Virus record (IMG/VR): IMGVR_UViG_3300042902_000256
Location: 1-38,657 of that record
Direction: 5' to 3' (one strand)
Length of the DNA stretch: 38,657 bases
Source: a virus
Shown: positions 1 to 38,540 of the stretch, piece by piece
Numbering within the stretch: position 1 is the first letter of the stretch
How the letters are laid out: every line of letters starts with the position of its first letter
The notes under the pieces: generated by a model
What the model saw: the letters and a program-made list of their open reading frames with translations, nothing else
Database searches by the model: none
Told to the model about the DNA's origin: nothing
Position numbers and translations under genes: made by a program

Positions 1-10
1 CACGAAAGCC

Positions 11-79
11 GCCTAACGCCTAGCTGTGCCGCCGAGTGCAGCGCAGCGGAACGAGGTCGGAACGAGCGCCGTGTTAGGC
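11..79 (+). repeat. attC recombination site 1 (integron cassette)
   Basis: The site opens with GCCTAAC (11-17) and closes with its exact reverse complement GTTAGGC (73-79). These match the integron core consensus RYYYAAC/GTTRRRY, and the 69-base length is normal for attC. The interior is imperfectly self-complementary and contains two GGAACGAG copies. An upstream cassette must have lain to the left (or at the right edge of the window, if the molecule is circular). Cassette ORFs to the right read in the expected direction. A GGAG at 83-86, just past the site, acts as ribosome binding site for the next ORF. Confidence 0.85.
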
Positions 80-95
80 GCTGGAGAATTGAGAA

Positions 96-260
96 ATGAA
101 CACACTGGAACTTGTAAAAACGCTTAACCACCAGGCAAACGAAATTGCTTCTGCTGAGCATAATGGGTGGAGCAACACCATGCGCGAGGCCGCAGACAAA
201 TTGGAGGAATTGCAGGAGCGCATTTATCAGCTTGAAAACCAATGCGCTAAGAGCGCATAA
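96..260 (+). CDS. Small cassette protein, 54 aa, helical
   Basis: This 54-codon frame begins with ATG at 96, nine bases after a GGAG, and ends at TAA 258-260. The protein is polar and probably all helical. Its C-terminal half (EAADKLEELQERIYQLE) has a heptad-like pattern suggesting a short coiled coil. It has no signal peptide or membrane segment. It sits directly after attC 1 and fills its cassette, as cassette genes do. I do not recognise the family and infer no function. Confidence 0.6.
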   Translation: MNTLELVKTLNHQANEIASAEHNGWSNTMREAADKLEELQERIYQLENQCAKSA

Positions 261-268
261 CTACAAAG

Positions 269-288
269 CTAACCGGATTGCCGGTTAG
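269..288. repeat. Perfect 8-bp hairpin after first cassette ORF
   Basis: CTAACCGG (269-276) and CCGGTTAG (281-288) pair perfectly around the loop ATTG. No T-run follows, so it is not a typical intrinsic terminator. Its outer bases, CTAAC...GTTAG, look like the R''/R' ends of an attC site with the interior deleted. It lies where the attC of the 54-aa cassette should be. It may be a collapsed attC, or a simple mRNA stem-loop. Confidence 0.5.
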
Positions 289-308
289 ACAGAACAGGAG
301 AACATGAA

Positions 309-605
309 GTGCCAGAGACAAACGAAAGCCCCGCTAGTGAAACAAACGCCGATGCAGGCAAGTCCGATTTGTTAAGCGATTTGTTATCTAGCGGGTTCGA
401 TTCTGCTAGCGACCTCATCGGATACTGCGCACTGCACTGTGAAACGCCCCGCGCCCTGTTTAATGGTAAGCAAATAAACGACATGATTAGGCTTGCTGGG
501 TATCCTTCAAACTGGGTACAGGAAGTACCCGCCGATGAGTGGTTTTCCGTACACCAGGACATGTTAGATCTGTGCAAATTAGCCAGAGAAAGATTAGCTA
601 GATAA
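309..605 (+). CDS. Hypothetical cassette protein, 98 aa
   Basis: GTG at 309 is chosen as start because AGGAG at 296-300 lies eight bases upstream; the ATG at 304 is in another frame and stops early. The first ~20 residues are polar and disordered (MPETNESPASETNADAGK). The rest is a mixed helical domain with cysteines in the CALHC segment and tryptophans near the C terminus. The stop TAA (603-605) lies inside the AGATAAC that begins the next attC-like site, a common cassette arrangement. No family was recognised. Confidence 0.6.
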   Translation: MPETNESPASETNADAGKSDLLSDLLSSGFDSASDLIGYCALHCETPRALFNGKQINDMIRLAGYPSNWVQEVPADEWFSVHQDMLDLCKLARERLAR

Positions 606-657
606 CGATTGAGCTTACGGGCTTGCCGATTTGGAACCATATAGATTGGAGTAATGA
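600..657 (+). repeat. Degenerate attC-like site 2
   Basis: It begins AGATAACGATTGAGCT, closely resembling the start of attC 3 (GATAACGATGAAGCT), and contains the short pairing CGG/CCG around GCTTG. The right end (GTAATGA, 651-657) departs from GTTRRRY, so this is probably a decayed site or a boundary of fused cassettes. It carries the GGAG (648-651) used by the next ORF. The assignment rests on position and left-end similarity only. Confidence 0.35.
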
Positions 658-659
658 AT

Positions 660-878
660 ATGCAAAACGAAACCACCAAAGATAAACCAGCCGCCGCAGT
701 AGGCAAGTCCGCCGTACAGCGTTTTGTTATCCGCCTGCGGTGTTTGTTTGGAAATCACGCATGGGAGTGCTACCCAGCATACGAAAACAAAATACCGTCA
801 CACGTAAAGCTGAAGTGTGGATTTTGTGGACATGCACCGCAAAAGCGATGGATCAAGATACCGCCTTATTGCGGATAA
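660..878 (+). CDS. Small cysteine-containing cassette protein, 72 aa
   Basis: ATG 660 is preferred over ATG 654 because GGAG at 648-651 is then eight bases upstream. The 72-aa product has a basic N-terminal part (VIRLRCLFGNHAWECYP) and a C-terminal KCGFCGH knuckle, with a further cysteine near the end. A single zinc-binding fold of the form C...C-x2-C...C is possible. The stop TAA at 876-878 falls inside the left end of attC 3. There are no membrane segments. Function is unknown. Confidence 0.6.
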   Translation: MQNETTKDKPAAAVGKSAVQRFVIRLRCLFGNHAWECYPAYENKIPSHVKLKCGFCGHAPQKRWIKIPPYCG

Positions 879-936
879 CGATGAAGCTCAAGGGCCGCGA
901 GCTTGCGAGCGGTCCATTTGAAGCGCCGTGTTAGGT
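873..936 (+). repeat. attC recombination site 3
   Basis: The left end GGATAAC (873-879) contains the stop codon of the preceding ORF, and the right end GTTAGGT (930-936) fits GTTRRRY exactly. The interior has GGGCCGC and GCGGTCC, which pair around a GAGC-rich centre, giving the foldable single-strand structure that integron integrases recognise. Length is 64 bases. The left core matches only at TAAC, so recombination activity is uncertain. Confidence 0.72.
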
Positions 937-958
937 TGCGGGTTTAACGGAGGCTGAA

Positions 959-1156
959 ATGGTAATGGCGAGATTGCATATAATTTGTGGCAACTGTGGA
1001 TGCAACGATGAATGGGAGTTGCGGATAGTGCGAGACGGCGACGATGTGACGCAGGACGAGCCAAAGTTCGAGGATGCCGCTTATTTTTCGTGCGGCAACT
1101 GTGCCACATTGCACGATCTCAAGGACAATGCCAAGAGCGTTAAATTAGCAACCTAA
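959..1156 (+). CDS. Small zinc-ribbon cassette protein, 65 aa
   Basis: The start ATG 959 follows GGAGG at 949-953; an internal ATG at 965 is possible. The 65-aa protein has two CxxC knuckles, CGNCGC near residue 10 and CGNC near residue 46, separated by an acidic segment. This is the pattern of a small zinc ribbon. The stop TAA (1154-1156) lies within the ACCTAAC core of attC 4. Zinc binding is inferred from the spacing alone; the partner or target is unknown. Confidence 0.65.
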   Translation: MVMARLHIICGNCGCNDEWELRIVRDGDDVTQDEPKFEDAAYFSCGNCATLHDLKDNAKSVKLAT

Positions 1157-1248
1157 CGCTTAACTCAGGCGACCGCTGCCGCGCCTGTGACTGACTATTG
1201 ACGATACCGACCACGCGGCAGCGGGTCGGCTGGAGTGTAGTGTTATGC
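1151..1248 (+). repeat. attC recombination site 4
   Basis: The left core ACCTAAC (1151-1157) fits RYYYAAC, and the right core GTTATGC (1242-1248) fits GTTRRRY with one mismatch. Inner arms GACCGCTGCCGCG and CGCGGCAGCGG pair almost perfectly around an unpaired centre. The site shares a 30-base block (1161-1190) and a 26-base block (1212-1237) identically with attC 5. The next ORF starts at the ATG inside the right core, and the GGAG used for it (1232-1235) is inside the site. Confidence 0.85.
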
Positions 1249-1556
1249 ATTGGAACTTCAAAAAAGACCGCCCATATTTCGTGCTCGACCCCGAAGGTGA
1301 CGGGATCACATATTTCGAGACCATCGAGGATCGCGACAAATTCGCCGCCGAGTGCATACAACAATACCTCTACGACGAATGGAGCGAGGATGTGGTGAAT
1401 GTGGTTGCTGGCGTAGTGACGCACCGCGCCCAGCAGACTGACCGAGAAGACCGACCGGCAGAACTGGACGAGGAAGGTTGTGACGGTGACGGCCTCTACT
1501 GGGACCCTGACTGCGCATACAGATGCAACTACAAGCTGCTGCCTGTTGATGCATAA
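1245..1556 (+). CDS. Acidic hypothetical cassette protein, 103 aa
   Basis: ATG 1245 overlaps the right core of attC 4, and GGAG (1232-1235) within that attC gives nine-base spacing. The 103-aa product is strongly acidic, begins MHWNFKKDRPYFVLDPEGD and is rich in tryptophan, tyrosine and aspartate; four cysteines lie in its last third. Stop TAA 1554-1556 is within the GCATAAC left core of attC 5. No family was recognised. Being bounded exactly by two attC sites marks it as a cassette gene. Confidence 0.65.
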   Translation: MHWNFKKDRPYFVLDPEGDGITYFETIEDRDKFAAECIQQYLYDEWSEDVVNVVAGVVTHRAQQTDREDRPAELDEEGCDGDGLYWDPDCAYRCNYKLLPVDA

Positions 1557-1650
1557 CGCCTAACTCAGGCGACCGCTGCCGCGCCTGTGAATGTAAATTT
1601 TAGCAAGAACCGACACGCGGCAGCGGGTCGGCTGGAGTGACGGGTTATAT
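1551..1650 (+). repeat. attC recombination site 5
   Basis: The left core is GCATAAC (1551-1557) and the right core GTTATAT (1644-1650). The blocks 1561-1590 and 1614-1639 are identical to the corresponding parts of attC 4, while the central unpaired segment differs. That pattern, with conserved arms and a variable loop, is typical of attC sites sharing one source. It is the last clear attC in the array. Confidence 0.8.
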
Positions 1651-1665
1651 TTCGTGAGGTGCCAC

Positions 1666-1929
1666 ATGGCTGAACAGACTATCAAGACGATGGAAATACC
1701 GCTGGACCACCGGGACAAACAGACACCGATGATCACCAGCACGATGAAGCAGTACTGCATGGGTGAGTTTGAGTGGCAAGAGGATGTGCCGTATTACGAT
1801 GAAAACGGAGAGCTACACGAGCACACGGCGACCTATACGGTGCCCTGGGATCTGTGCAAGAGGATATACAAGCAGATGGCTACGATGGCGAATGGCAGCC
1901 CTGAAATGGAACTGGAACGAGAAATATAA
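1666..1929 (+). CDS. Hypothetical protein of the last cassette, 87 aa
   Basis: ATG 1666 is preceded by GAGGT at 1656-1660; a GTG at 1654 would add four residues. The 87-aa protein is acidic and contains a two-tyrosine stretch (DVPYYDENGELHEHTATY) followed by a C-terminal helix. The stop lies in ATATAAC (1924-1930), which resembles a left attC core, but no right core follows. The array therefore ends here or the last attC was lost. Function is unknown. Confidence 0.55.
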   Translation: MAEQTIKTMEIPLDHRDKQTPMITSTMKQYCMGEFEWQEDVPYYDENGELHEHTATYTVPWDLCKRIYKQMATMANGSPEMELEREI

Positions 1930-1978
1930 CAACGGACTATACTGCAAATGAAATCATCATCACCAAAAAGGTGCAATT

Positions 1979-2305
1979 ATGCTATCACCTGAGATTATAG
2001 CGATGATGACGCCGGAGCAACGGTTATGGCTGTCGCAGCAGGGGAATCGTGCAAGGGAGCTGCTGCGACTGGCACAAGAACCGCCAGACTATCTACCTGT
2101 ACCCAAGGCCTTTCAGCGCTTCGTTATCCTTGGCTCACTCGAATTTGACCGGCCGATAGTGCGCACCGCCCTCTTCTTCGACTGCGGCCACACCGGCCGT
2201 TATCGCACGGTAATAGGCACCACGCCGCAGCCAGGTACTACGGGATGGTACAACGGAATCCATCAGGTTGCCGAAACAATTCCACCCGTTCGCCTCATCT
2301 TCTAA
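1979..2305 (+). CDS. Hypothetical protein convergent with integrase, 108 aa
   Basis: The start ATG 1979 follows AAGGTG (1968-1973). The 108-aa protein starts with a short helical region (MLSPEIIAMMTPEQRLWLSQQ) and continues into a segment rich in beta-forming residues, with one cysteine-histidine pair (FDCGHTG). No attC follows it, so it is probably not a cassette gene. Its stop overlaps the integrase stop by three bases on the opposite strand (2303-2305 against 2302-2304). I recognise no family. Confidence 0.55.
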   Translation: MLSPEIIAMMTPEQRLWLSQQGNRARELLRLAQEPPDYLPVPKAFQRFVILGSLEFDRPIVRTALFFDCGHTGRYRTVIGTTPQPGTTGWYNGIHQVAETIPPVRLIF

Positions 2306-3339
2306 ATCAGCTTTCTCGCCACCGCAGACGGCCTGATATGCGTGTACCGCTTCAACGTCTTCCAGTCTGTGTGGCCGGTAATACTCGCCACCTCCTCGAT
2401 GGCTAGCCCCATCTCAAAAAACCGACTGGTGGCCTCATGGCGCAAGTCGTGGAATCGCACGTCGGCAATGCCCGCCGCCTTCTTCGAGCGATTGAACTCC
2501 TGAGTGATGCTATCTGCAGCCAGATTAAACAGCGTCACAGCCCGAGCCTCGGCGGGGTTGGCCTTCTCCATGGCTGCCTTAATTCTCTCCTCGGCATCCT
2601 TCTTGGCTATGTTCAGGATAACCCGAGCCCGAGGCGTGAGCGGCACCTCACGCGGCTTGCCAATCTTGGTATCAGGTACCAGCAGCCTATCGCCCAGGTC
2701 ATGCTCTGGCTTTGCCTTGGCTAATTCCCCACGCCGCATCGCCGTTTCCACGGCAAACCACGCCACCGGACACAGCTTGTCAGACCCAGAGAACGCGACG
2801 ATCTTCTCCAGCTCCCAATCCTCCACCCGCCTGTCGCGCTGATTGCCTGCAGAGAGCGTCTTTGTCACCCTCAAAATGCCCTTGGCCACCGTCACAGGAT
2901 TCGCCACCAGGTGAATGCCCCACAGCGCCATGGCCGTATCGATAGCATGAGAGAGAGTGCCAAGCTCCTTGCGCACCGTATCCGCCACCACATCATCCAG
3001 ACGATCATCCACGTAATCAATCACCGACTCCGCAGACAACGCCGCCAGCGACAAATCACCCAGCTCTCTGGTGATGATGCTGATGCGTGACAGCTCCTTA
3101 ACTGAGCTCTTCTTCCGGGGAGTGATGAGCAACTGGTACTTCTCCAGCATCGCCTCCACCGACATCCGCGCAGCCGCTGAGTGGTCGCGAAACAGACCCT
3201 GCGCCATCTCCTCTTCAAGGGTTCGCGCCCAATCCTGAGCCGCCGCCTTAGTACGGAACGTCTCCGATACAGGCTTGTGACCAGTCTTCCTAATTATTGC
3301 CTGCCACCGGCCGCTGGCCAGCTTTCTGAATGTCGCCAT
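2302..3339 (-). CDS. int: Tyrosine integrase, 345 aa
   Basis: It catalyses site-specific recombination between phage and host attachment sites. From the chosen start (MATFRKLASGRW) the protein has an N-terminal arm-binding domain (~1-55), a core-binding SAM-like domain (~58-150) and a C-terminal catalytic domain. The full active-site set is present: R202 (MRRGE), a lysine near 225-228, H297 and R300 (HDLRH), H323 (TGHTD) and nucleophile Y332. An upstream extension to 3525 is open but would run through the tRNA fragment, so it is rejected. The gene reads away from the attachment core, which lies about 110 bases upstream, as in P4-type integrases that use tRNA genes. The enzyme appears intact. 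Confidence 0.95.
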   Translation of the reverse strand: MATFRKLASGRWQAIIRKTGHKPVSETFRTKAAAQDWARTLEEEMAQGLFRDHSAAARMSVEAMLEKYQLLITPRKKSSVKELSRISIITRELGDLSLAALSAESVIDYVDDRLDDVVADTVRKELGTLSHAIDTAMALWGIHLVANPVTVAKGILRVTKTLSAGNQRDRRVEDWELEKIVAFSGSDKLCPVAWFAVETAMRRGELAKAKPEHDLGDRLLVPDTKIGKPREVPLTPRARVILNIAKKDAEERIKAAMEKANPAEARAVTLFNLAADSITQEFNRSKKAAGIADVRFHDLRHEATSRFFEMGLAIEEVASITGHTDWKTLKRYTHIRPSAVARKLI

Positions 3340-3384
3340 AGAGCGCGATATTGCACCAAATGGCATACCGTGGCTAGACGCCAA

Positions 3385-3402
3385 TGTGATGAAATTGTGA
3401 TG
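3385..3402 (+). promoter_or_regulatory. Putative integrase arm-type site, integrase side
   Basis: TGTGATG occurs twice in direct repeat here, separated by AAAT. The same 18-base arrangement recurs at 3617-3634 with 16 of 18 bases identical. Paired short direct repeats on both sides of an attachment core are the usual layout of arm-type binding sites for the N-terminal domain of phage integrases. Binding by this integrase is inferred. Confidence 0.6.
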
Positions 3403-3450
3403 GAGGGAAATTTTGACGCGGAAGAAATCCGCGTAACCTATTGGTTTTAT

Positions 3451-3499
3451 TGGTGTCCCGGATACGATTCGAACGTACGGCCTTCCCCTTAGGAGGGGG
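3451..3499 (-). other. attP: Attachment core: 3' part of tRNA-Arg(CCU)
   Basis: Read on the minus strand, the segment contains an anticodon stem-loop with loop CTCCTAA (anticodon CCU), a variable region, a T arm with GTTCGAATC, the acceptor 3' strand and the encoded CCA. No matching 5' half (GTCCCGG start) lies upstream, so this is a fragment and not a functional tRNA. Such a fragment is what a phage carries to rebuild the 3' end of the host tRNA gene after integration. Host downstream sequence would normally follow its CCA end. Here the integrase follows and arm-type repeats flank both sides, which fits intact attP. Confidence 0.8.
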
Positions 3500-3616
3500 T
3501 TTAATACAATAGCCAACGATGGCAATCAATGGCTATTAGTTGTTTATTATCAACACCTTGCCGCACTCCGATTGTCATTATTTGCCATTGTAAAACATGG
3601 CTTTCCATTCTGGCAC

Positions 3617-3634
3617 TGTGATGGAATTGTGATC
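3617..3634 (+). promoter_or_regulatory. Putative integrase arm-type site, late-gene side
   Basis: This is the second copy of the double TGTGATG motif (16 of 18 bases identical to 3385-3402), in the same orientation but on the other side of the tRNA core. Between it and the core lie further short repeats of ATGGC/GCCAT (3519-3604) that could bind accessory factors such as IHF or an excisionase. Having both arms in one molecule supports an unintegrated attP. Confidence 0.55.
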
Positions 3635-3651
3635 AACCAACGACGCCAGCA

Positions 3652-4071
3652 CTATTGACTGGCCACCAGCCTTGGCCACCTGTCGTGTACGGCCATGAAC
3701 TCGGGCAGTGTCGGGGTGATGGTGACGACGTAGACGCGGTGCTCGTTGCCGTTGCGGGTTAGGCAGCCCTGGATAAACTGTCCTTTGGTCACATGGTACC
3801 AGTGGCTTTTGCCTGCTTCATCCTTCTCCATGAATCCATCGACTGCTATCAGTACCGGCTTTGGCTGGTACTGGTTCCACTTGCCGGCTTCGATGCTGTC
3901 GTGGCGGGCCCAGCCGGTTTGGGGCAGGGTGCCCTCCTCCCCTTTACGCCGTCCCCAGGTCACAAGCTGTACGCTGCCGTCGTGCTTTCTGACCGGCACG
4001 GCTGCATTGGGTTGGGGAAAGTAGACGGTGACGTTCTTGCCGTCTACCTGATATCGGACGCCTCCACACAT
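3652..4071 (-). CDS. Compact SRAP-family protein (YedK/HMCES type), 139 aa
   Basis: SRAP proteins form a thiazolidine crosslink between Cys2 and abasic sites in single-stranded DNA, shielding them. After removal of Met1, C2 is exposed (MCGGVRY). The other family signatures are present in compact form: WGRR at 39-42, DGFMEKD with E82 in the place of the catalytic glutamate, and VHDRWP with H129 in the place of the catalytic histidine. At 139 aa it is much shorter than cellular members (about 220 aa or more). It starts five bases after the stop of a 31-aa ORF and has little Shine-Dalgarno sequence of its own, so translational coupling is likely. It may protect phage DNA during replication or recombination; that role is inference. 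Confidence 0.8.
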   Translation of the reverse strand: MCGGVRYQVDGKNVTVYFPQPNAAVPVRKHDGSVQLVTWGRRKGEEGTLPQTGWARHDSIEAGKWNQYQPKPVLIAVDGFMEKDEAGKSHWYHVTKGQFIQGCLTRNGNEHRVYVVTITPTLPEFMAVHDRWPRLVASQ

Positions 4072-4075
4072 GCGG

Positions 4076-4171
4076 CTAGTATAACCGGGCGGCTTCTATC
4101 AGGCAGCGGATTATGAAACCGATGATAGCCATGCCCTTGGTAGTGAGCGTGATGGTGATGTGAATCTTCAT
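4076..4171 (-). CDS. Small hydrophobic ORF upstream of SRAP gene, 31 aa
   Basis: This short frame starts at ATG 4169-4171 behind AGGGG on the minus strand and stops five bases before the SRAP start. The product begins MKIHITITLTTKG and continues with a hydrophobic stretch (MAIIGFIIRCLIEAA) that could span or sit in a membrane. The good ribosome binding site and tight spacing suggest it is translated and couples translation into the next gene. No family was recognised. Confidence 0.5.
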   Translation of the reverse strand: MKIHITITLTTKGMAIIGFIIRCLIEAARLY

Positions 4172-4231
4172 GATAGTAACCCCTGTTATTTAGAGGTTAC
4201 TGATTATCAGGATTTTTTGTGGGAAGTCAGC

Positions 4232-4281
4232 AAGGGGCCGGCCCCGTTCCGGAACCGTTCCGGAACCGGGGCCGGCCCTTT
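4232..4281. terminator. Long GC-rich hairpin, probable terminator
   Basis: AAGGGGCCGGCCCCG and CGGGGCCGGCCCTTT form near-perfect arms of about 15 bp. The centre holds two tandem copies of the palindrome GTTCCGGAAC. The structure separates the late-operon end and the secreted-protein gene from the SRAP gene. A T-rich segment (GATTTTTTG, 4211-4219) lies beyond the hairpin on the low-coordinate side, too far for a canonical terminator. It could stop transcription in either direction or bind a dimeric protein. Confidence 0.5.
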
Positions 4282-4326
4282 AGGGTTTCTGGCATCCATG
4301 CACGTCACCACCCTATTACATGAATT

Positions 4327-4357
4327 TTGATATCTCGACCGTCATACAGGGTATAAC
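4327..4357 (+). promoter_or_regulatory. Putative sigma-70 promoter of secreted small protein
   Basis: TTGATA (4327-4332) and TATAAC (4352-4357) resemble -35 and -10 boxes, but the 19-base spacer is long. The palindrome GGGTATAACCC (4349-4359) covers the -10 box and could be an operator. The location just upstream of an isolated plus-strand gene in a minus-strand region fits a moron with its own promoter. Confidence 0.35.
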
Positions 4358-4380
4358 CCAATCAAAAAAGGCGGTGAGCT

Positions 4381-4563
4381 ATGCGTTTTATCCTTCCAGT
4401 TACCTTGTCCCTCATTGTGGCAGGATGGGTTCTATCCTCGGCACCTGGAGCAGCCGCGTGTAGATCAGCCTACGACGCGGCCGGGAGAGCCGCTATCGAT
4501 GAGCAGCGGCGGGGTGTGCCGATGGCCCCAGCGCTGGAGGCGCTGGAGCGAGCCTGCCGGTAA
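4381..4563 (+). CDS. Small secreted protein (moron), 60 aa
   Basis: ATG 4381 follows AAGGCGGTGAG. The first ~26 residues (MRFILPVTLSLIVAGWVLSS...GAAAC) form a signal peptide: a basic start, a hydrophobic core and a small-residue cleavage region. Cleavage before or at C27 is possible, so a lipoprotein cannot be excluded, although the lipobox is imperfect. The mature part is only about 34 residues, with a second cysteine near the end. It lies alone on the plus strand between a promoter-like sequence and the convergent tail genes. This is the usual setting of lysogenic-conversion genes, but its function is unknown. Confidence 0.6.
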   Translation: MRFILPVTLSLIVAGWVLSSAPGAAACRSAYDAAGRAAIDEQRRGVPMAPALEALERACR

Positions 4564-4573
4564 CCGACCTGCA

Positions 4574-5191
4574 TCACCAGGCGATCGCCTGAATGGCGAT
4601 ACCGGCAGCTGTGTGGTCGAGGTAGTTGGGGTCTGTGGTCAACAGCTGCGTGCGGGCGACGATGTCTGCCACCGATTCCTGCAAACCACATTTCTTACTC
4701 CACTGTGTGGTCCAGTTTAGGCCCAGCTCGGTAACCATAGCCTCCACGTCCGTTACAGGTATGCTGAGGTGACGCACGTTGTTGGCGTCACGGATATCCA
4801 TAGTTGCCAGCCCCAGCCTAGTGGCTAGGCGAGTGCCGTCATCCAGCTTGCGCACATCCGCATCGGTTGCGTCCATCGTGATGCCGTTGGCGCAGGTATG
4901 GCCGGTAGCAAGTGCTACGTCCATGCTGTTACTGATAGCGCTGAGTTTGTTCTCTACCAGCTCACTCAGTAGTTTCTCCGCCGCTGCTATGGGGTCTGCC
5001 TCCTCCCACCTCGTACCGTCGAGCGATAGACGCGGGGTGTGCATGTCGTCGGGGACTGGCGGTGCGTTGGTGACGAAAATATCAGTCATATTAACGTCAA
5101 TAGGACAATCAACCGAACGCGCGGTTATCTCGTCAACTGAAACGACATTTTTTAATGTCCTGTCGGTATTTAACACCGCGTTTATTTTCAT
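4574..5191 (-). CDS. Tail fibre-associated protein with DUF4376-like domain, 205 aa
   Basis: The N-terminal ~80 residues are variable. The C-terminal ~120 residues (from the SNSMDVALATGH region to the AIAW end) resemble the DUF4376 domain of phage tail fibre and fibre-assembly proteins. Its ATG overlaps the stop of the tail fibre gene (5188-5191), so the two are coupled. It is the last gene of the late operon. It is probably a fibre chaperone or distal fibre component; domain recognition is by pattern only. Confidence 0.6.
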   Translation of the reverse strand: MKINAVLNTDRTLKNVVSVDEITARSVDCPIDVNMTDIFVTNAPPVPDDMHTPRLSLDGTRWEEADPIAAAEKLLSELVENKLSAISNSMDVALATGHTCANGITMDATDADVRKLDDGTRLATRLGLATMDIRDANNVRHLSIPVTDVEAMVTELGLNWTTQWSKKCGLQESVADIVARTQLLTTDPNYLDHTAAGIAIQAIAW

Positions 5192-6528
5192 TGCACCAGC
5201 CCTGTTATATTAAATTTAATTTCGCCTGTTGCGCCCAAGCTCCCAACGTCGATAGTGGCAGCACTCCCGCCGGAGTTTATGTAAAAAAACCGTACCGGCT
5301 GCCCCGGGTCAGCAGCCGCAAGCAGTTGATAGCTGCTCCCGCCTGTATACATCGACGCGACATAACCAAAACTCGCCGACGATGCACTCCTAAATAGATT
5401 AGGAATGATTACCTCCATCAATCCGGTGCCGCTTTTCGCCGTCCATTTAATCGCGATGCTATAGGTAATTAGACCACCGGATTTGATGTAATACCCTGTC
5501 TGCGTAGTGTATGTAAATGTCCCATTAGTAAATGCCGGAACAAACGCCCCGTACCCTACCCAATCACTCGTCACCGTCACCGTCACCGCCCCAGACGGCG
5601 CACCAACCTGCCACGTTGCCCCGTCGTTGTAGATAATCGATACCCCGGTGTCAAACGACTCTGCCAACACCTGCACATCGTAGGCGGCGGCAATAATCGA
5701 CTGCATCCACAGTTCAACGTCGGTGCCATTGGTGGCGTCGGACGTAACCAGCATCACGTCGTTATAGGCCAGCGCCTGCCCGTCATTAGAGAGCATGCTG
5801 ATTTTTGACGTGGCGGATAAACCCGCCGTGGCCTGCAGAGCAGTGACGGTGAGCAGCACAGGTTTGTACACGCCCGCTGCCGCTTTTGGGGTGAGCAGCA
5901 GGGTTAGGTTTGCGCCCACGTTATCCGTGACGGGGAATGGCAGCGTTGCGATGTTTGTGTAGTAGCCGGCCGTGGCTACGGCGGTGCGCATTTTCTGGCT
6001 GGCAGAATCGTATGTGAGATGGAACTCATTAACGCCGTTGCTGTGAACGGCGCGAATAGCACCGTTATACAGCTGAATAGATGCCGCACCACCCACCGCC
6101 TCACCACCCTCCGCCGCGATGGTGACGGTGTTGGCGCTGCCGTCGATGCGCGCAAACACATAACCCAGCGAGGCCAGATCGGCAGCGCCAGGCAGAGTGA
6201 GTGTGATATTTCCTGCCGAGGCATCCACCTCAATGAGCCCCGCCTGATCCAGGGTGAGGGTGGCCGTGGCGGTGAGGGTGGTGACGTTGCCGCCAGCGAA
6301 GCGCTTGAGCCCCTTGAGCAGCTGATTGAGGTCGGCATCGCTCGGTGTCTGGCCGCTGCCGGCAACGATGGCGCGCAGGGCCTCACCGATTTTGTAGTAC
6401 CAGTGCGCCCCAGGAACGGTGGGGGGAGTAACACCCGGCACACCTTCCTGCGGGTAGCCGTTGCTCGGCGTAGTCGGCGCGCTGGGCGGGGTGGCGCTGG
6501 CGCCGCTTTCATAATTGCGTGTTTCCAC
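5188..6528 (-). CDS. Tail fibre protein, 446 aa
   Basis: GTG 6528 is chosen because AGGAGG lies six bases upstream. The longer open frame to 6732 only overlaps the preceding baseplate gene. After a Pro/Ser/Thr-rich N terminus comes a short helical region (HWYYKIGEALRAIVAGSGQ). The rest is long beta-rich sequence, full of Gly, Thr, Ala and Val, with repeats of aromatic-plus-glycine turns, typical of trimeric fibres. Position after the gp48-like baseplate gene matches gpS of Mu. It should recognise the host surface, making it the most variable structural gene. Confidence 0.8.
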   Translation of the reverse strand: METRNYESGASATPPSAPTTPSNGYPQEGVPGVTPPTVPGAHWYYKIGEALRAIVAGSGQTPSDADLNQLLKGLKRFAGGNVTTLTATATLTLDQAGLIEVDASAGNITLTLPGAADLASLGYVFARIDGSANTVTIAAEGGEAVGGAASIQLYNGAIRAVHSNGVNEFHLTYDSASQKMRTAVATAGYYTNIATLPFPVTDNVGANLTLLLTPKAAAGVYKPVLLTVTALQATAGLSATSKISMLSNDGQALAYNDVMLVTSDATNGTDVELWMQSIIAAAYDVQVLAESFDTGVSIIYNDGATWQVGAPSGAVTVTVTSDWVGYGAFVPAFTNGTFTYTTQTGYYIKSGGLITYSIAIKWTAKSGTGLMEVIIPNLFRSASSASFGYVASMYTGGSSYQLLAAADPGQPVRFFYINSGGSAATIDVGSLGATGEIKFNITGLVQ

Positions 6529-31106: not shown

Positions 31107-32450
31107 ATGGCACAATTTGACACCCTGTCGCTCAATACGCTTCTGCTTGACAGCGAGAATCCGCGTCATGATGTTATAGAAGACCAGAAAGAGATCGTCC
31201 GCTGGATGATGAACAGCATTGGCGACAAGGTCTACCACCTTGCCCAGCATATTGCCAAACACGGCATTTCGCCCCTTGAGCGCACCATGGTCATGCCGCT
31301 TAACGGCAAGAAGAAAGGCCACTACATGGTGCTTGAAGGTAACCGCCGCGTTACTGCACTGAAGCTTCTGCACGAACCCGAGCTATGCCCCACCAGTCGC
31401 GACCGTACCCGCTTCGCGGCATTGGCCAGTACAGCAGTGGGCCTACCTGATGAAATCTCGGTGGCCATTGTAACAAGCCGGGACGAAGCAGACCCCTGGA
31501 TACTGGTACGGCACCAGGGAGAGCAAGGTGGTGCCGGCACCGTGCAGTGGGGGCCAGCAGCGGCAGAGCGTTACAGCAGCCGCATGAACCGGCAGGGGCA
31601 AGATGCCTACGCTGTTCAGGTACTGGACTACGCCACCCAAACCGAGCTGGTGGCACAGGAGGTAATTGACAATGTGCCCACCACAAACCTTTCACGTTTA
31701 TTACGAGACCCCTATGTTCGGGAACGTTTAGGGCTTAGCGTTAACCCTGCCGGCATGATGAGTGGCTTGCTGGAGCAGAAGGAGCTAGACAAAGCGCTGG
31801 CTTACATTCTGCAGGAGCTGGGTACCAAAGCCATTACGGTTGACCGCGTCAGGCACAAGGATAACCGCCGCAGCTACATTGAAGATGTTATTAAAACAGC
31901 CAGTGTTGACACCAGCAGGCTGGAAAGCGAACGCTACGATCTTGCGGCTGTTGCCGCGCAGGCCAAAAAACCCTCCAAGCGAAAGAAGAGAGACAACGCC
32001 CCCTCCATCGCCAGACCAACGCTCATCCCAGCTGACTTCAGAATGAAGATTGACGACACCCGCCTCAACTCCATCTACAAGGAGCTGAAAGGGCTCAACG
32101 TTGAGGACTACACCAATGCGGTGTCGGTGACGTTTCGCCTATTTCTTGAGGCGATGGTGAAAACCTACTTGAAAAACACCGACCCAAAATGGTCGCCAAG
32201 CGCAAAAAGCAACGAAGAGCTTTTTAAGCAGGTACGACGTGTTGCCAACGAATTGAAGGCTGCCGACAAACTGACCGAGGACCAGGCAAAGCCCGCGCTT
32301 ACCGCCTGCGAAAACCCCGACTCGTTTTTCTCCATTAAAACCTTTAACTCCTATGTGCACAACCTGCACATGCACCCGATGGCCGGGGATTTGAAGCGGG
32401 CCTGGGATAACTTTCAGCCCTTCATCCATGCGCTGGAGGAGTACGTTTAG
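31107..32450 (+). CDS. ParB-domain protein with HEPN-like C terminus, 447 aa
   Basis: Residues ~1-110 are a ParB/Srx-type domain: LLLDSENPRH, then HLAQHIAKHGISPLERTMVM and YMVLEGNRRVTALKLL with the EGNRR motif at 77-81. The middle (residues ~110-300) contains TTNLSRLLRDPYVRERLGLS and a basic KKPSKRKKR stretch. The C-terminal ~150 residues are helical, ending with FNSYVHNLHMHP (about 413-424), which recalls the Rx4-6H-type active site region of HEPN ribonucleases. A nuclease or NTP-dependent effector is therefore plausible. The stop overlaps, tail to tail by three bases, the methylase stop. It is unlike the second ParB-like gene at 36102. Confidence 0.6.
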   Translation: MAQFDTLSLNTLLLDSENPRHDVIEDQKEIVRWMMNSIGDKVYHLAQHIAKHGISPLERTMVMPLNGKKKGHYMVLEGNRRVTALKLLHEPELCPTSRDRTRFAALASTAVGLPDEISVAIVTSRDEADPWILVRHQGEQGGAGTVQWGPAAAERYSSRMNRQGQDAYAVQVLDYATQTELVAQEVIDNVPTTNLSRLLRDPYVRERLGLSVNPAGMMSGLLEQKELDKALAYILQELGTKAITVDRVRHKDNRRSYIEDVIKTASVDTSRLESERYDLAAVAAQAKKPSKRKKRDNAPSIARPTLIPADFRMKIDDTRLNSIYKELKGLNVEDYTNAVSVTFRLFLEAMVKTYLKNTDPKWSPSAKSNEELFKQVRRVANELKAADKLTEDQAKPALTACENPDSFFSIKTFNSYVHNLHMHPMAGDLKRAWDNFQPFIHALEEYV

Positions 32451-33355
32451 GCGGACAACTCACGGATATATGTTGCGTAGTCTTGCACCAGTTTTGGGGT
32501 GACATCGAAGGGGCTATCGAATTCCGGCACGTCCATGGTGTCTGAAAATATAATCAGCTCACTGCCATCGTAGTGCTTGCCCGCACTGTAGGCTATGCCG
32601 TAGGTCTGTTGACGGTACCCTGGGTACATTGCCTTTATTTCAGGCACATTGTCGTAGGAGACCACCCACTTGTGGCCTTCCAGCGACGTTACAAAGTCTG
32701 CCAGTATCTGGTGATCATCATGACCGTAATGGTTTTCATAAAGCTCCTGCCCTTTCTTGTAATAGGGCGGGTCAAGGTACACCAGTGACTTCTCATCGAG
32801 CTCTGGCGTGACATGATCCAGAAACGCCATGGCGTCCTGATTATAGAGCTTGATACGGCTCTTGTATGAAGCGATCTTTCTTATCTTCTTTATCAGTGCC
32901 TCTTTGTTGAAGCGCGCATCTATCTTGTACTTGCCTTTTTGCTCCAGGCCACCAATCACGCCGCCAGTGAGAACGCCTGAGTGGTTGGTGCGGTTCATAT
33001 AAAAGGCAGCAAACCCCAAATCCAGTGACTCAGGGTCGGTTAGAGTGAAATAGCGCTCCCGCTGGCGCTCCCACTCTTTCATAGTGAGTGGTGCACGGGT
33101 AATGCGCCGGCAAAACAACTCTGTATTATTGATGATTGAATACCAAAAGGCGTAAACGGCCGGGTCGATATCATTCAGGTGTATTGTCCTGGCATACTCA
33201 AGGCGCAGTAAATCAATCGCCAGCCCGGCACCACCGGCAAAGGGCTCCACATAATCACCATCTCGCAATCCGTTCTCCAGGTAGAGGATTTGAAAGAAAC
33301 GGCTCCATCGGGTTTTACCGCCGGGGTAACGCAATGGTGATGCTGTATGGCCCAT
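32447..33355 (-). CDS. dam: DNA adenine methylase, Dam/D12 class, 302 aa
   Basis: It transfers methyl from S-adenosylmethionine to adenine N6. The class signatures are present: PLRYPGGK at 7-14, the cofactor loop YVEPFAGGAGLA at 35-46 and the catalytic DPPY at 195-198. Target specificity cannot be read here; GATC is a guess. Length is normal for Dam-type enzymes. It sits between HigA and the ParB-domain gene and probably shares the toxin-antitoxin transcript. It may protect phage DNA from host or self nuclease. Confidence 0.92.
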   Translation of the reverse strand: MGHTASPLRYPGGKTRWSRFFQILYLENGLRDGDYVEPFAGGAGLAIDLLRLEYARTIHLNDIDPAVYAFWYSIINNTELFCRRITRAPLTMKEWERQRERYFTLTDPESLDLGFAAFYMNRTNHSGVLTGGVIGGLEQKGKYKIDARFNKEALIKKIRKIASYKSRIKLYNQDAMAFLDHVTPELDEKSLVYLDPPYYKKGQELYENHYGHDDHQILADFVTSLEGHKWVVSYDNVPEIKAMYPGYRQQTYGIAYSAGKHYDGSELIIFSDTMDVPEFDSPFDVTPKLVQDYATYIRELSA

Positions 33356-33357
33356 GA

Positions 33358-33777
33358 TTATTCCTTGTCGATAAACACACCTGCCGGCACGCCGAAGCGG
33401 GCAGACAAACGTGAAATATGGTGAACGTTAAGCTGGCGCTTGCCGTTGAGCACCTCAGAGACCACGCTCTGGGTGCCAATTTCCGGCAGCTCGGTTTGCT
33501 TGATGCCACGTTCTTTCATCAGATGGCGCAGCACCTCAACCCCGCTTGCTGCAGGCGGCATGGCATGGTGCTGTGACTCCCACTTCTCAACCAGATCACC
33601 CAGGCTATCTGCCAGGCTGGCCAGGGGATGCCCTTCGTCGGCACCGCCCGCATCCAGCACCTCGTCGAGTACCTGCACCAACTGTTCGTAGTCAGCCTCT
33701 GACTTTGGAGCTGTCAGCAGCGGCGCCACATGCCCCCAGTGTGCAATAGCCTCGTCAACTTGTACCTTAGCCAGCAT
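33358..33777 (-). CDS. higA: HigA-type antitoxin, 139 aa
   Basis: ATG 33777 has GGAGG eight bases upstream; the longer GTG start overlaps the toxin. The N-terminal half is acidic and helical (toxin-binding). The C-terminal half has an XRE HTH (KERGIKQTELPEIGTQSVVS, then LNGKRQLNVHHISRLSARFG). HigA antitoxins bind HigB and repress the operon. Here the antitoxin follows the toxin, the usual hig order. The end is two bases from the methylase start, so the methylase is probably in the same operon. Confidence 0.85.
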   Translation of the reverse strand: MLAKVQVDEAIAHWGHVAPLLTAPKSEADYEQLVQVLDEVLDAGGADEGHPLASLADSLGDLVEKWESQHHAMPPAASGVEVLRHLMKERGIKQTELPEIGTQSVVSEVLNGKRQLNVHHISRLSARFGVPAGVFIDKE

Positions 33778-33782
33778 TGCGA

Positions 33783-34067
33783 TTACCTCCACTTGCCTTT
33801 GTCGTACTCGGTGTGGGTGAGAACTTCACGAATAAACACCTTCTGGCGGTTGAAATGGACGGCGGCAATCAAGCGTAACTTGTTGCCGCCCACATTAAAC
33901 ACGTAAAGGTCACCCACCTTGTCTACGCTGCTGAACAGCGCTTTAAGCTGAGCAAAGTCCTGCAGCTCAGCCTTCTTCATTACCTGATACCACTGCTCCA
34001 GCGCACTGGCGCAACTGTTGTGCTGCTCGGCGGCCTCCTTGATGCGCTTTTGAGTAATGATGTGCAT
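33783..34067 (-). CDS. higB: HigB-type mRNA interferase toxin, 94 aa
   Basis: The protein starts MHIITQKRIKEAAEQHNSCA and continues with the family region VDKVGDLYVFNVGGNKLRLI and AAVHFNRQKVFIREVLTHTE, ending YDKGKWR. HigB toxins cleave mRNA on the ribosome. ATG 34067 is chosen because the longer frame would run over the operator. It lies upstream of higA. The RelE-like fold and toxicity follow from family membership. Confidence 0.88.
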   Translation of the reverse strand: MHIITQKRIKEAAEQHNSCASALEQWYQVMKKAELQDFAQLKALFSSVDKVGDLYVFNVGGNKLRLIAAVHFNRQKVFIREVLTHTEYDKGKWR

Positions 34068-34076
34068 GGATAGATA

Positions 34077-34095
34077 ATATCGCAAATTGCGATAT
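34077..34095. promoter_or_regulatory. HigBA operator palindrome
   Basis: ATATCGCAA and TTGCGATAT are perfect arms around one central A. The palindrome is ten bases upstream of the HigB start and overlaps the probable leftward promoter (TATTAT on the minus strand). Autorepression by HigA is the standard mechanism. Confidence 0.8.
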
Positions 34096-34144
34096 ATGGC
34101 AAACACCCTTGCCGTTACCGATAAGGCTCAGAGAACAATAGCGC

Positions 34145-37769: not shown

Positions 37770-38248
37770 TGCACCACTTCGGAAAGCGCTCACTCGCCGT
37801 TCGCGCCACCCTGCATCCAGTGCTCCAGGCATGGGTCGACCGCGTTATAAAAAGACGCAACATCACCCTGCTTGTTGGTCACCGTGATGAACACAAACAG
37901 AACGCCGCCTTTGCCAGTGGCGCCAGCACCAAGCAATGGCCCGACGGCAAACACAACACCCTGCCATCCGAAGCCGTCGACGTTGCGCCGTGGCCCATCC
38001 CAGAAGGCTGGGGAGACCTCAAAGGGCAGACAGCAAAAGCCCGCGACCTAGACTGGAAAGAGCGCGTGAAATTCTACGAAATGCTAGCCAGCTTCGAGGA
38101 TGCCTGGACAGAAATGTGCGACGAAGACCCCACCCTCGCCGAAGAGTACGATCCACGCTACGGCAAAGACTGGGACGGCGACGGCGACTACCGCGACCAA
38201 ACCTTCGACGACCTACCGCATATCGAGCTGGTGAGGAAAATAAAGTGA
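37769..38248 (+). CDS. M15-family peptidase endolysin, 159 aa
   Basis: The protein should cleave the L-Ala-D-Glu (or similar) bond in peptidoglycan. It opens with HFGKRSLAVRATLHPVLQAW, followed by TLLVGHRDEHKQNAAFASGA and the zinc ligands H62 (GKHNTLPSEA), D71 (VDVAPWP) and H151 (LPHIEL). Between D71 and H151 a loop KDWDGDGDY resembles a Ca2+-binding loop. No signal peptide is present, so release needs a holin such as the one at 17404. The ATG overlaps the previous stop (TGATG). It is the only lytic enzyme recognised. Confidence 0.85.
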   Translation: MHHFGKRSLAVRATLHPVLQAWVDRVIKRRNITLLVGHRDEHKQNAAFASGASTKQWPDGKHNTLPSEAVDVAPWPIPEGWGDLKGQTAKARDLDWKERVKFYEMLASFEDAWTEMCDEDPTLAEEYDPRYGKDWDGDGDYRDQTFDDLPHIELVRKIK

Positions 38249-38454
38249 CCACCGAGCAGATGATCGTTGAGCGCTACGGCGTCACCCTCAACACAGACCA
38301 GCTAGCCGAACTGCTGCACATGGGGAAGAAATCTGTCACCAACTCCATCAGCGCCGACCGCTTCCCCATCACCACCTTCAAGGCCGGCAAATACCGGCTC
38401 GCCCATGCCAGCGACGTAGCCAGCTACCTGGACAACCAGCGGGCGGCGTCGTAA
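38245..38454 (+). CDS. Small HTH protein, AlpA/excisionase-like, 69 aa
   Basis: GTG 38245 overlaps the endolysin stop (GTGA). The product has an HTH with LNTDQLAELLHMGKKSVTNS and a wing-like TTFKAGKYRLAHASDVASYL, resembling AlpA/excisionase-type winged helices. As the last gene of the rightward operon it could be the missing excisionase or a regulator. Weak evidence for either role. Confidence 0.6.
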   Translation: MTTEQMIVERYGVTLNTDQLAELLHMGKKSVTNSISADRFPITTFKAGKYRLAHASDVASYLDNQRAAS

Positions 38455-38495
38455 CGGCTTGATAAGCCGCGCCGCCACAGGCTTAGAAAAGAACC

Positions 38496-38515
38496 CCGAC
38501 GCTTTCCGGCGTCGG
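38496..38515. terminator. Hairpin terminator at end of rightward operon
   Basis: CCGACGC and GCGTCGG pair around a six-base loop. On the minus strand the stem continues into GGGGTTCTTTT; on the plus strand into CTTGATTAAAA. It likely terminates transcription at the end of the rightward operon, and perhaps also counter-transcription. Confidence 0.55.
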
Positions 38516-38540
38516 CTTGATTAAAATGTTGGGAGGCTGT

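Follow-up and report, generated by a model that had tools for sequence, protein, structure and literature searches.

Bacterial integrons are now viewed in part as stores of anti-phage defence genes. Among 10,705 phage genomes, Qi et al. 2023 (PMC9892861) report three complete integrons, one In0 and 17 CALINs. According to the same authors, attC arrays occur in both temperate and virulent phages, some of them with DNA methyltransferase cassettes, and IntI1 recombines phage attC sites. A complete integron is likewise carried by a temperate phage of Vibrio anguillarum, Va_90-11-286_p16, and by the Shewanella prophage M16-3. The window analyzed here is the whole of IMG/VR record IMGVR_UViG_3300042902_000256, a single contig of 38,657 bases with unclosed ends. 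We consider it quite probable that the stretch at its start is the cassette array of a phage-type integron carried by a temperate tailed phage, from which attI and intI have been lost.

Phage genome and attachment site

Profile matches identified terminase, portal, tail sheath, tape measure, primase, endolysin and ParB-like families in the window. Structural and packaging genes are thus accompanied by an integrase and an intact attP, which identifies the contig as a temperate phage of the Caudoviricetes. No end repeats that would close the contig were found in the whole record. The tRNA-Arg(CCT) half forming the attachment core (Table 1) was matched in 65 of 150 genomes of the host order, and the examined loci contain the tRNA gene. 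The site corresponds to an attP, not to an attL or attR, because arm repeats lie on both sides of the core and phage genes on both sides of the site. Since the phage contig possesses an intact attP, with the tRNA half and both arm repeats, the array lies in phage DNA. The initial annotation had made this dependent on an intact attP, and it holds for the assembled contig, whose ends are unclosed, so that the joining of array and phage in the assembly is probable and not certain. By eye, the T-stem of the phage tRNA-Arg half (3450-3501) is kept through paired changes relative to the host copies, so that integration at tRNA-Arg would probably restore a working tRNA.

The nearest terminase relatives in genomes belong to Candidatus Nitrotoga and other Nitrosomonadales (60-66%), and the host of the phage is probably a Nitrosomonadales-like betaproteobacterium. 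A single-protein search revealed no close relatives of the phage integrase in viral contigs. Searches revealed no phage DNA close to that of the window, which leaves its array without other individuals for comparison. Outside the array, a Dam-type adenine methylase gene is located at 32447-33355 on the minus strand (TIGR00571 66 bits, below the cut-off of 115). Two small overlapping genes at 33358-34106, also on the minus strand, resemble by eye a HigB/HigA toxin-antitoxin module.

Table 1. Features of the array, of the attachment region and of the opposite contig end.
Feature	Position	Strand	Remarks
attC1	11-79	-	37.6 bits, E 4e-7 on model strand; 7.0 bits on other strand
Cassette 1 gene, 54 aa	96-260	+	TAA in GCATAAC (255-261); weak Ead/Ea22-like match, E 0.012
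attC2, long loop	255-389	-	Boundary signature; imperfect stem, extra right-arm bases; weak score, 8.5 bits
Cassette 2 gene, 98 aa if GTG start (start uncertain)	309-605	+	TAA in AGATAAC (600-606)
attC3, long loop	600-732	-	Signature; stem 17.7, null fraction 0.05; not listed by covariance model
Cassette 3 gene, 74 aa	654-878	+	Open frame
attC4	873-936	-	Covariance model 43.2 bits, E 2e-8
Cassette 4 gene, 65 aa, CxxC pairs	959-1156	+	Zinc-ribbon-like by eye; no family match
attC5	1151-1248	-	Stem 24.8, above 260/260 null candidates; 17.7 bits, E 0.03
Cassette 5 gene, 103 aa, phage early-region protein family	1245-1556	+	Phage homologues, E down to 2e-21
attC6	1551-1650	-	Stem 26.1, above all null candidates; 21.3 bits, E 0.004
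Cassette 6 gene, 91 aa	1654-1929	+	Homologue in Nitrincola phage 1M3-16, E 3e-15
Proximal array boundary, ATATAAC	1924-1930	-	No attC stem after it, no recognisable attI
Orphan ORF, 108 aa, in slot of relatives' attI and intI	1979-2305	+	No relative, no family match
Phage tyrosine integrase	2302-3358	-	PF00589 E 3e-16; phrog_1 integrase E 8e-46
attP arm repeat, integrase side	3382-3401	+	18/20 identical to 3614-3633
attP core, 3' half of tRNA-Arg(CCT) gene	3450-3501	-	Matches in host-order genomes
attP arm repeat, structural-gene side	3614-3633	+	20-base repeat, 18/20 identical to integrase-side copy
Excisionase-like gene just ahead of array	38245-38454	+	phrog_1300 excisionase E 6e-7
attC0, probable distal attC	38449-38534	-	14.4 bits, E 0.17, fifth-best place; two right-arm stem bulges
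Cassette 7 gene, partial, runs off contig end	38541-38657	+	Open frame; stop probably at 14-16

attC sites and cassette boundaries

A cassette signature was defined as GTTNNNN at the start and its exact reverse complement at the end. Five consecutive signatures were found end to end (383-606, 726-879, 930-1157, 1242-1557 and 1644-1930). In 200 first-order Markov simulations of 38.6 kb, the longest tiling chain comprised three signatures and appeared in eight of them. Addition of the sites at 11-79 and 255-389 to the tiling signatures led to a total of six complete cassettes and six attC sites between positions 1 and 1930. The initial annotation had counted five; the sites are real, but there are six of them, plus a probable seventh at 38449-38534. 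All six plus-strand ORFs terminate in a TAA that forms part of the following boundary, within its left core (RNNTAAC); the initial annotation had stated this for several of them. With at least two tandem attC sites and their cassette boundaries, the window has the arrangement of a CALIN, an attC cluster without intI.

The stems of attC5 and attC6 scored above all 260 chance AAC...GTT candidates found elsewhere in the phage, whereas those of attC1 to attC4 did not. On the same stem scale, class 1 attC controls reached 9.7-21.3, indicating that weak stems are not unusual in real attC sites. The two arms of class 1 attC sites align in two registers. We then used a covariance model with 14 pairs. 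Its 20 attC sites came from viral contigs with intI and from one prophage integron, and none came from the window. In the model alignment, 91.7% of the cells were paired, against 76.5% in shuffles, and covariation was 0.46, against 0.18; none of 500 shuffles was as high. The five best places of the contig in an unfiltered search were, in order, attC4, attC1, attC6, attC5 and 38449-38534, each on the model's plus strand. The covariance check proposed in the initial annotation, performed here with our own phage-attC model, thus ranked four of the six sites above every other place in the contig. Together with the excess of tiling signatures over the Markov null, this result indicates that the array at 1-1930 is real. 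attC2 and attC3 had a low or absent model score; their long loops are outside the training range, and their assignment is based on the signature and an imperfect stem. We consider them weak sites.

ORFs 2 and 3 begin inside the loops of their own attC2 and attC3. These long loops (290-320 and 640-670) seem to enclose the translation start of the next gene, ribosome-binding site and start codon included, and a similar arrangement is apparent at L217 4914-5003 and at L229 2635-2749 and 3308-3425. The sequence AGCGNTTYGTTATC is present at the right end of both attC2 (375-388) and attC3 (718-731); a third copy, at 2115-2128 inside the ORF at 1979-2305, is perhaps the remnant of a lost boundary. 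A seventh attC placed after position 1930 was rejected, there being no stem; relatives have attI at that place, but the attI consensus is missing. The exact core of attC5/6 was found in no viral or genome contig. In 399 genomes of the host order, attC6 DNA gave only short matches without arrays, and the inspected ones were not attC sites. At the opposite contig end, the boundary of attC0 overlaps the stop codon of the excisionase-like gene. Because this site precedes an ORF running off the contig, the array probably spans the unclosed ends, with one cassette crossing the presumed join.

Integrons of related phages

No window ORF exceeded the TIGR02249 cut-off of 265 for integron integrases. 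The sole tyrosine recombinase (2302-3358, minus strand) scored 27.9, in agreement with the absence of an integron integrase stated initially. A search with the phage-type attI consensus gave nothing beyond chance in the window, and no relic of attI or intI was found there. The window contains neither the intI gene nor a recognisable attI site of a complete integron, and neither the phage-clade intI nor the conserved attI of a phage-type integron. For the ORF at 1979-2305, a single-protein search in viral contigs revealed no relatives and profile searches no family matches.

Complete integrons were found in relatives. In the Burkholderiales contig G124:C13, an array is followed by an integron integrase (454 bits, cut-off 265), then by an excisionase-looking short ORF and a phage-type integrase that adjoins host genes. 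Positions 1-6240 of this contig (L169) show a prophage-type integron with intI and the phage-type integrase side by side, the contig starting inside an attC. Use of the G124:C13 IntI as a query led to 60 IMG/VR contigs. Of 25 of these contigs that were examined, 15 have another tyrosine recombinase at a distance of about 2 kb or less, 14 times on the same strand. A terminase is common to the window and seven of ten further-read intI contigs (30-69%), several of which also have the portal, head protein and primase in common with it. All five viral-contig IntI proteins tested pass TIGR02249 (424-473 bits), and known phage records yielded only nine IntI relatives, at most 54% identical. In the IntI tree, a clade of 23 members (support 99/94) is formed by 21 viral contigs, the prophage copy of G124:C13 and G018:C15, where IntI lies beside a phage-type recombinase and is accompanied by the phage attI. 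This conserved attI (AACTTAAATTCGACGACACC...) is located between array and intI in relatives. Its core is matched exactly by 25 viral contigs, of which ten are outside the 60 intI contigs when compared by contig name.

In L195 and L217, plus-strand genes are followed by the array, intI, the phage integrase and then minus-strand genes. The window has the same gene order, except that intI is missing and the direction of the phage integrase is different: its array is placed between plus-strand early genes and the integrase, with late genes on the other strand. The succession of early operon, array, attI, intI and phage integrase, beside attP, is a recurrent layout in this phage group. The idea of an array standing by chance beside an integrase does not survive, as relatives have full integrons in the same slot. 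For this same reason the window seems to have lost attI and intI, and it looks like a member of the phage-type integron group after this loss. Because it contains no relic of either element, we infer its descent from a complete phage integron only from position and polarity. The nearest terminase relatives without intI gave seven model hits in 1.0 Mb, at two loci only. The hits in Candidatus Nitrotoga sp. M5 correspond to normally oriented integron cassettes that lie next to a phage terminase gene (L091 12553-14288). The Nitrotoga M5 assembly also contains an IntI nearly identical to class 1 IntI1 (G011:C86), which may represent a recent acquisition or contamination.

These relatives also bear on the possibility that a cassette array from a bacterial chromosome was joined to the phage contig end, as an assembly chimera or as a neighbouring element. 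The array is indeed at a contig end, where attC repeats break assemblies, and its G+C (0.48-0.55) is lower than that of most of the contig. However, it runs unbroken into the phage integrase and the attP with both arms, a further probable attC follows the excisionase-like gene at the opposite contig end, and the order of early genes, array, integrase and minus-strand late genes is that of the relatives. Such a junction appears very improbable, and we retain an array belonging to the phage.

Polarity, cargo and cassette exchange

Two relatives, L218 (IMGVR_UViG_3300034092_002355) and L219 (IMGVR_UViG_3300044858_004705), have flanks and shared cassettes that are 98.5-99.9% identical and differ by the exact loss of one cassette and the gain of another. 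The attC interior retained in this pair places the crossover at the GTT of the opposite strand. The initial proposal that the phage moves cassettes is thus supported in relatives by exact excision and insertion; the window itself gives no such support.

In class 1 attC sites, the bulged bases were in the left arm of the coding strand in all nine informative controls. In phage arrays, they were in the right arm of the intI-ward strand at 24 of 27 sites (Fisher p 2e-6 vs class 1). In the window, four of the six attC sites have them in the right arm and two are tied; multi-base extras are also on the right. In phage loci oriented by intI, the model gave about 120 hits, of which only two were not on the common strand. 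Whereas class 1 and chromosomal attC sites match the model on the strand opposite the genes, phage and window sites match it on the same strand as the genes, and the model strand of window attC1, 4, 5 and 6 is the direction of the ORFs. The bulge arms, the model strand and the L218/L219 crossover at GTT indicate that attC polarity in phage integrons is away from intI/int, as in any integron; the genes are inverted and read toward intI/int. The initial annotation has to be amended as regards polarity: the window attC sites point away from the phage integrase, and the genes, against attC polarity, toward it. In this orientation each window ORF lies within a single cassette, with the attC on the 5' side of the gene. 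The plus polarity (gene, then attC) was rejected: it is contradicted by the model strand, by the position of the bulges and by the footprint of the L218/L219 excision, and its crossover point would also cut ORFs 2 and 3. Genome G124 provided a control within the same genome, as its two chromosomal integrons have genes directed away from intI and its prophage integron has genes directed toward intI.

In the cassettes of relatives, Pfam matches were obtained for 10 of 10 plus ORFs, which were chosen among the longest and are not a random sample, and for none of 10 minus ORFs. The families were N6/N4, C5, D12 and Dam methylases, Mom (twice), PAPS-reductase-like (twice) and DHH. The larger sampled cargo thus consists mostly of DNA methylases, Mom and other DNA modification functions, which probably act against restriction. 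Cassettes of some relatives (L208, L219) may contain minus-strand genes. The content of the window cassettes, initially presented as undescribed, is not wholly so, since cassettes 5 and 6 have phage early-protein homologues. These are found in early gene clusters of other phages, one of them beside an annotated Thoeris anti-defence gene, and a cassette 5 homologue (53%) in the G124 prophage is itself a cassette. A single-protein search detected no close cassette 5 relatives in viral contigs, and no cassette 4 homologue was found in genomes of the host order. The neighbourhoods of the cassette 5 and 6 homologues fit an early accessory role, without proving it; a role of the six small window proteins in early host takeover or counter-defence is a guess.

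Alternatively, the phage could have acquired an ordinary bacterial CALIN from the chromosomal integron of a host, a route that has been described in Vibrio phages. Host cassettes (L300, L301 and L091 in Nitrotoga M5) nevertheless have their genes opposite the attC model strand, while window genes run with it; two of the window cassette genes, 5 and 6, have phage homologues, and relatives have a dedicated phage-type integron in the same slot. Although integron integrases occur commonly among host-group genomes and class 1 integrons are already known in phages (PMC9892861), we consider this origin unlikely. The attC-like boundaries might otherwise have a different function in the phage, such as transcription termination or the shuffling of early genes by homologous recombination, and take no part in integron recombination. 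This would suit a window without intI, whose attC2 and attC3 are degenerate, and attC stems could act as terminators. It is however at odds with the exact 7-base cassette signatures, with bulged bases of consistent polarity and with the exact excision and insertion seen in intI-bearing relatives, and is most improbable.

In the phage-type integron that we favour, the cassettes would form the tail of the early operon and be transcribed from phage promoters. Recombination of folded single-stranded attC sites, likely during phage replication, would swap cassettes, and the integron platform would be used for the exchange of early accessory genes. The window array may receive an integrase in trans from the host or a co-infecting phage, or it may be frozen. 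With somewhat less confidence, we lean toward a broader proposal, in which the phage lineage owns a dedicated integron, with its own integrase clade and attI and with inverted genes expressed from the phage early operon instead of an integron promoter. If so, there would be a phage-private cassette pool, rich in DNA modification genes, not normally expressible in bacterial integrons, nor the reverse, and the window phage would draw on this pool non-autonomously.

Phages, and not only bacteria, appear to exchange genes through integrons. A phage integron with DNA modification cargo, its own integrase clade and genes in the opposite orientation would place the same recombination device on the phage side as well. 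Gene direction relative to attC polarity provides a rule separating phage-type from bacterial cassettes in any dataset, and the reshuffling of counter-defence genes by phages during infection becomes testable. Phage integrons as such are known. The literature searched contained no report of an integron lineage specific to phages or of a systematic gene inversion; the lack of a report there of the inverted, recurrent phage-type form is not proof of novelty.

The phage CALINs and integrons of Qi et al. are, like the window, attC cassette arrays in phages. In the available portions of that paper (PMC9892861), we found neither a recurrent phage lineage nor an intI clade or attI specific to phages, and neither a slot next to the phage integrase nor inverted genes. 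Unlike the present one, the array of Va_90-11-286_p16 is reported to be a subset of the chromosomal integron of its host, and the IntI proteins of this phage and of M16-3 are about 44% identical to the phage-clade query. G124:C13 and the IMG/VR loci L195-L221 have the slot, attC type and gene direction of the window. They keep attI and intI, whereas the window is without both. The larger ones among their sampled cassettes code for methylases, Mom and similar enzymes, those of the window for small unknown proteins. Chromosomal and class 1 integrons likewise have attC hairpins with bulges, cassette boundaries, an attI by intI and attC polarity away from intI; their genes, however, are directed away from intI, whereas the window genes are directed toward the integrase end.
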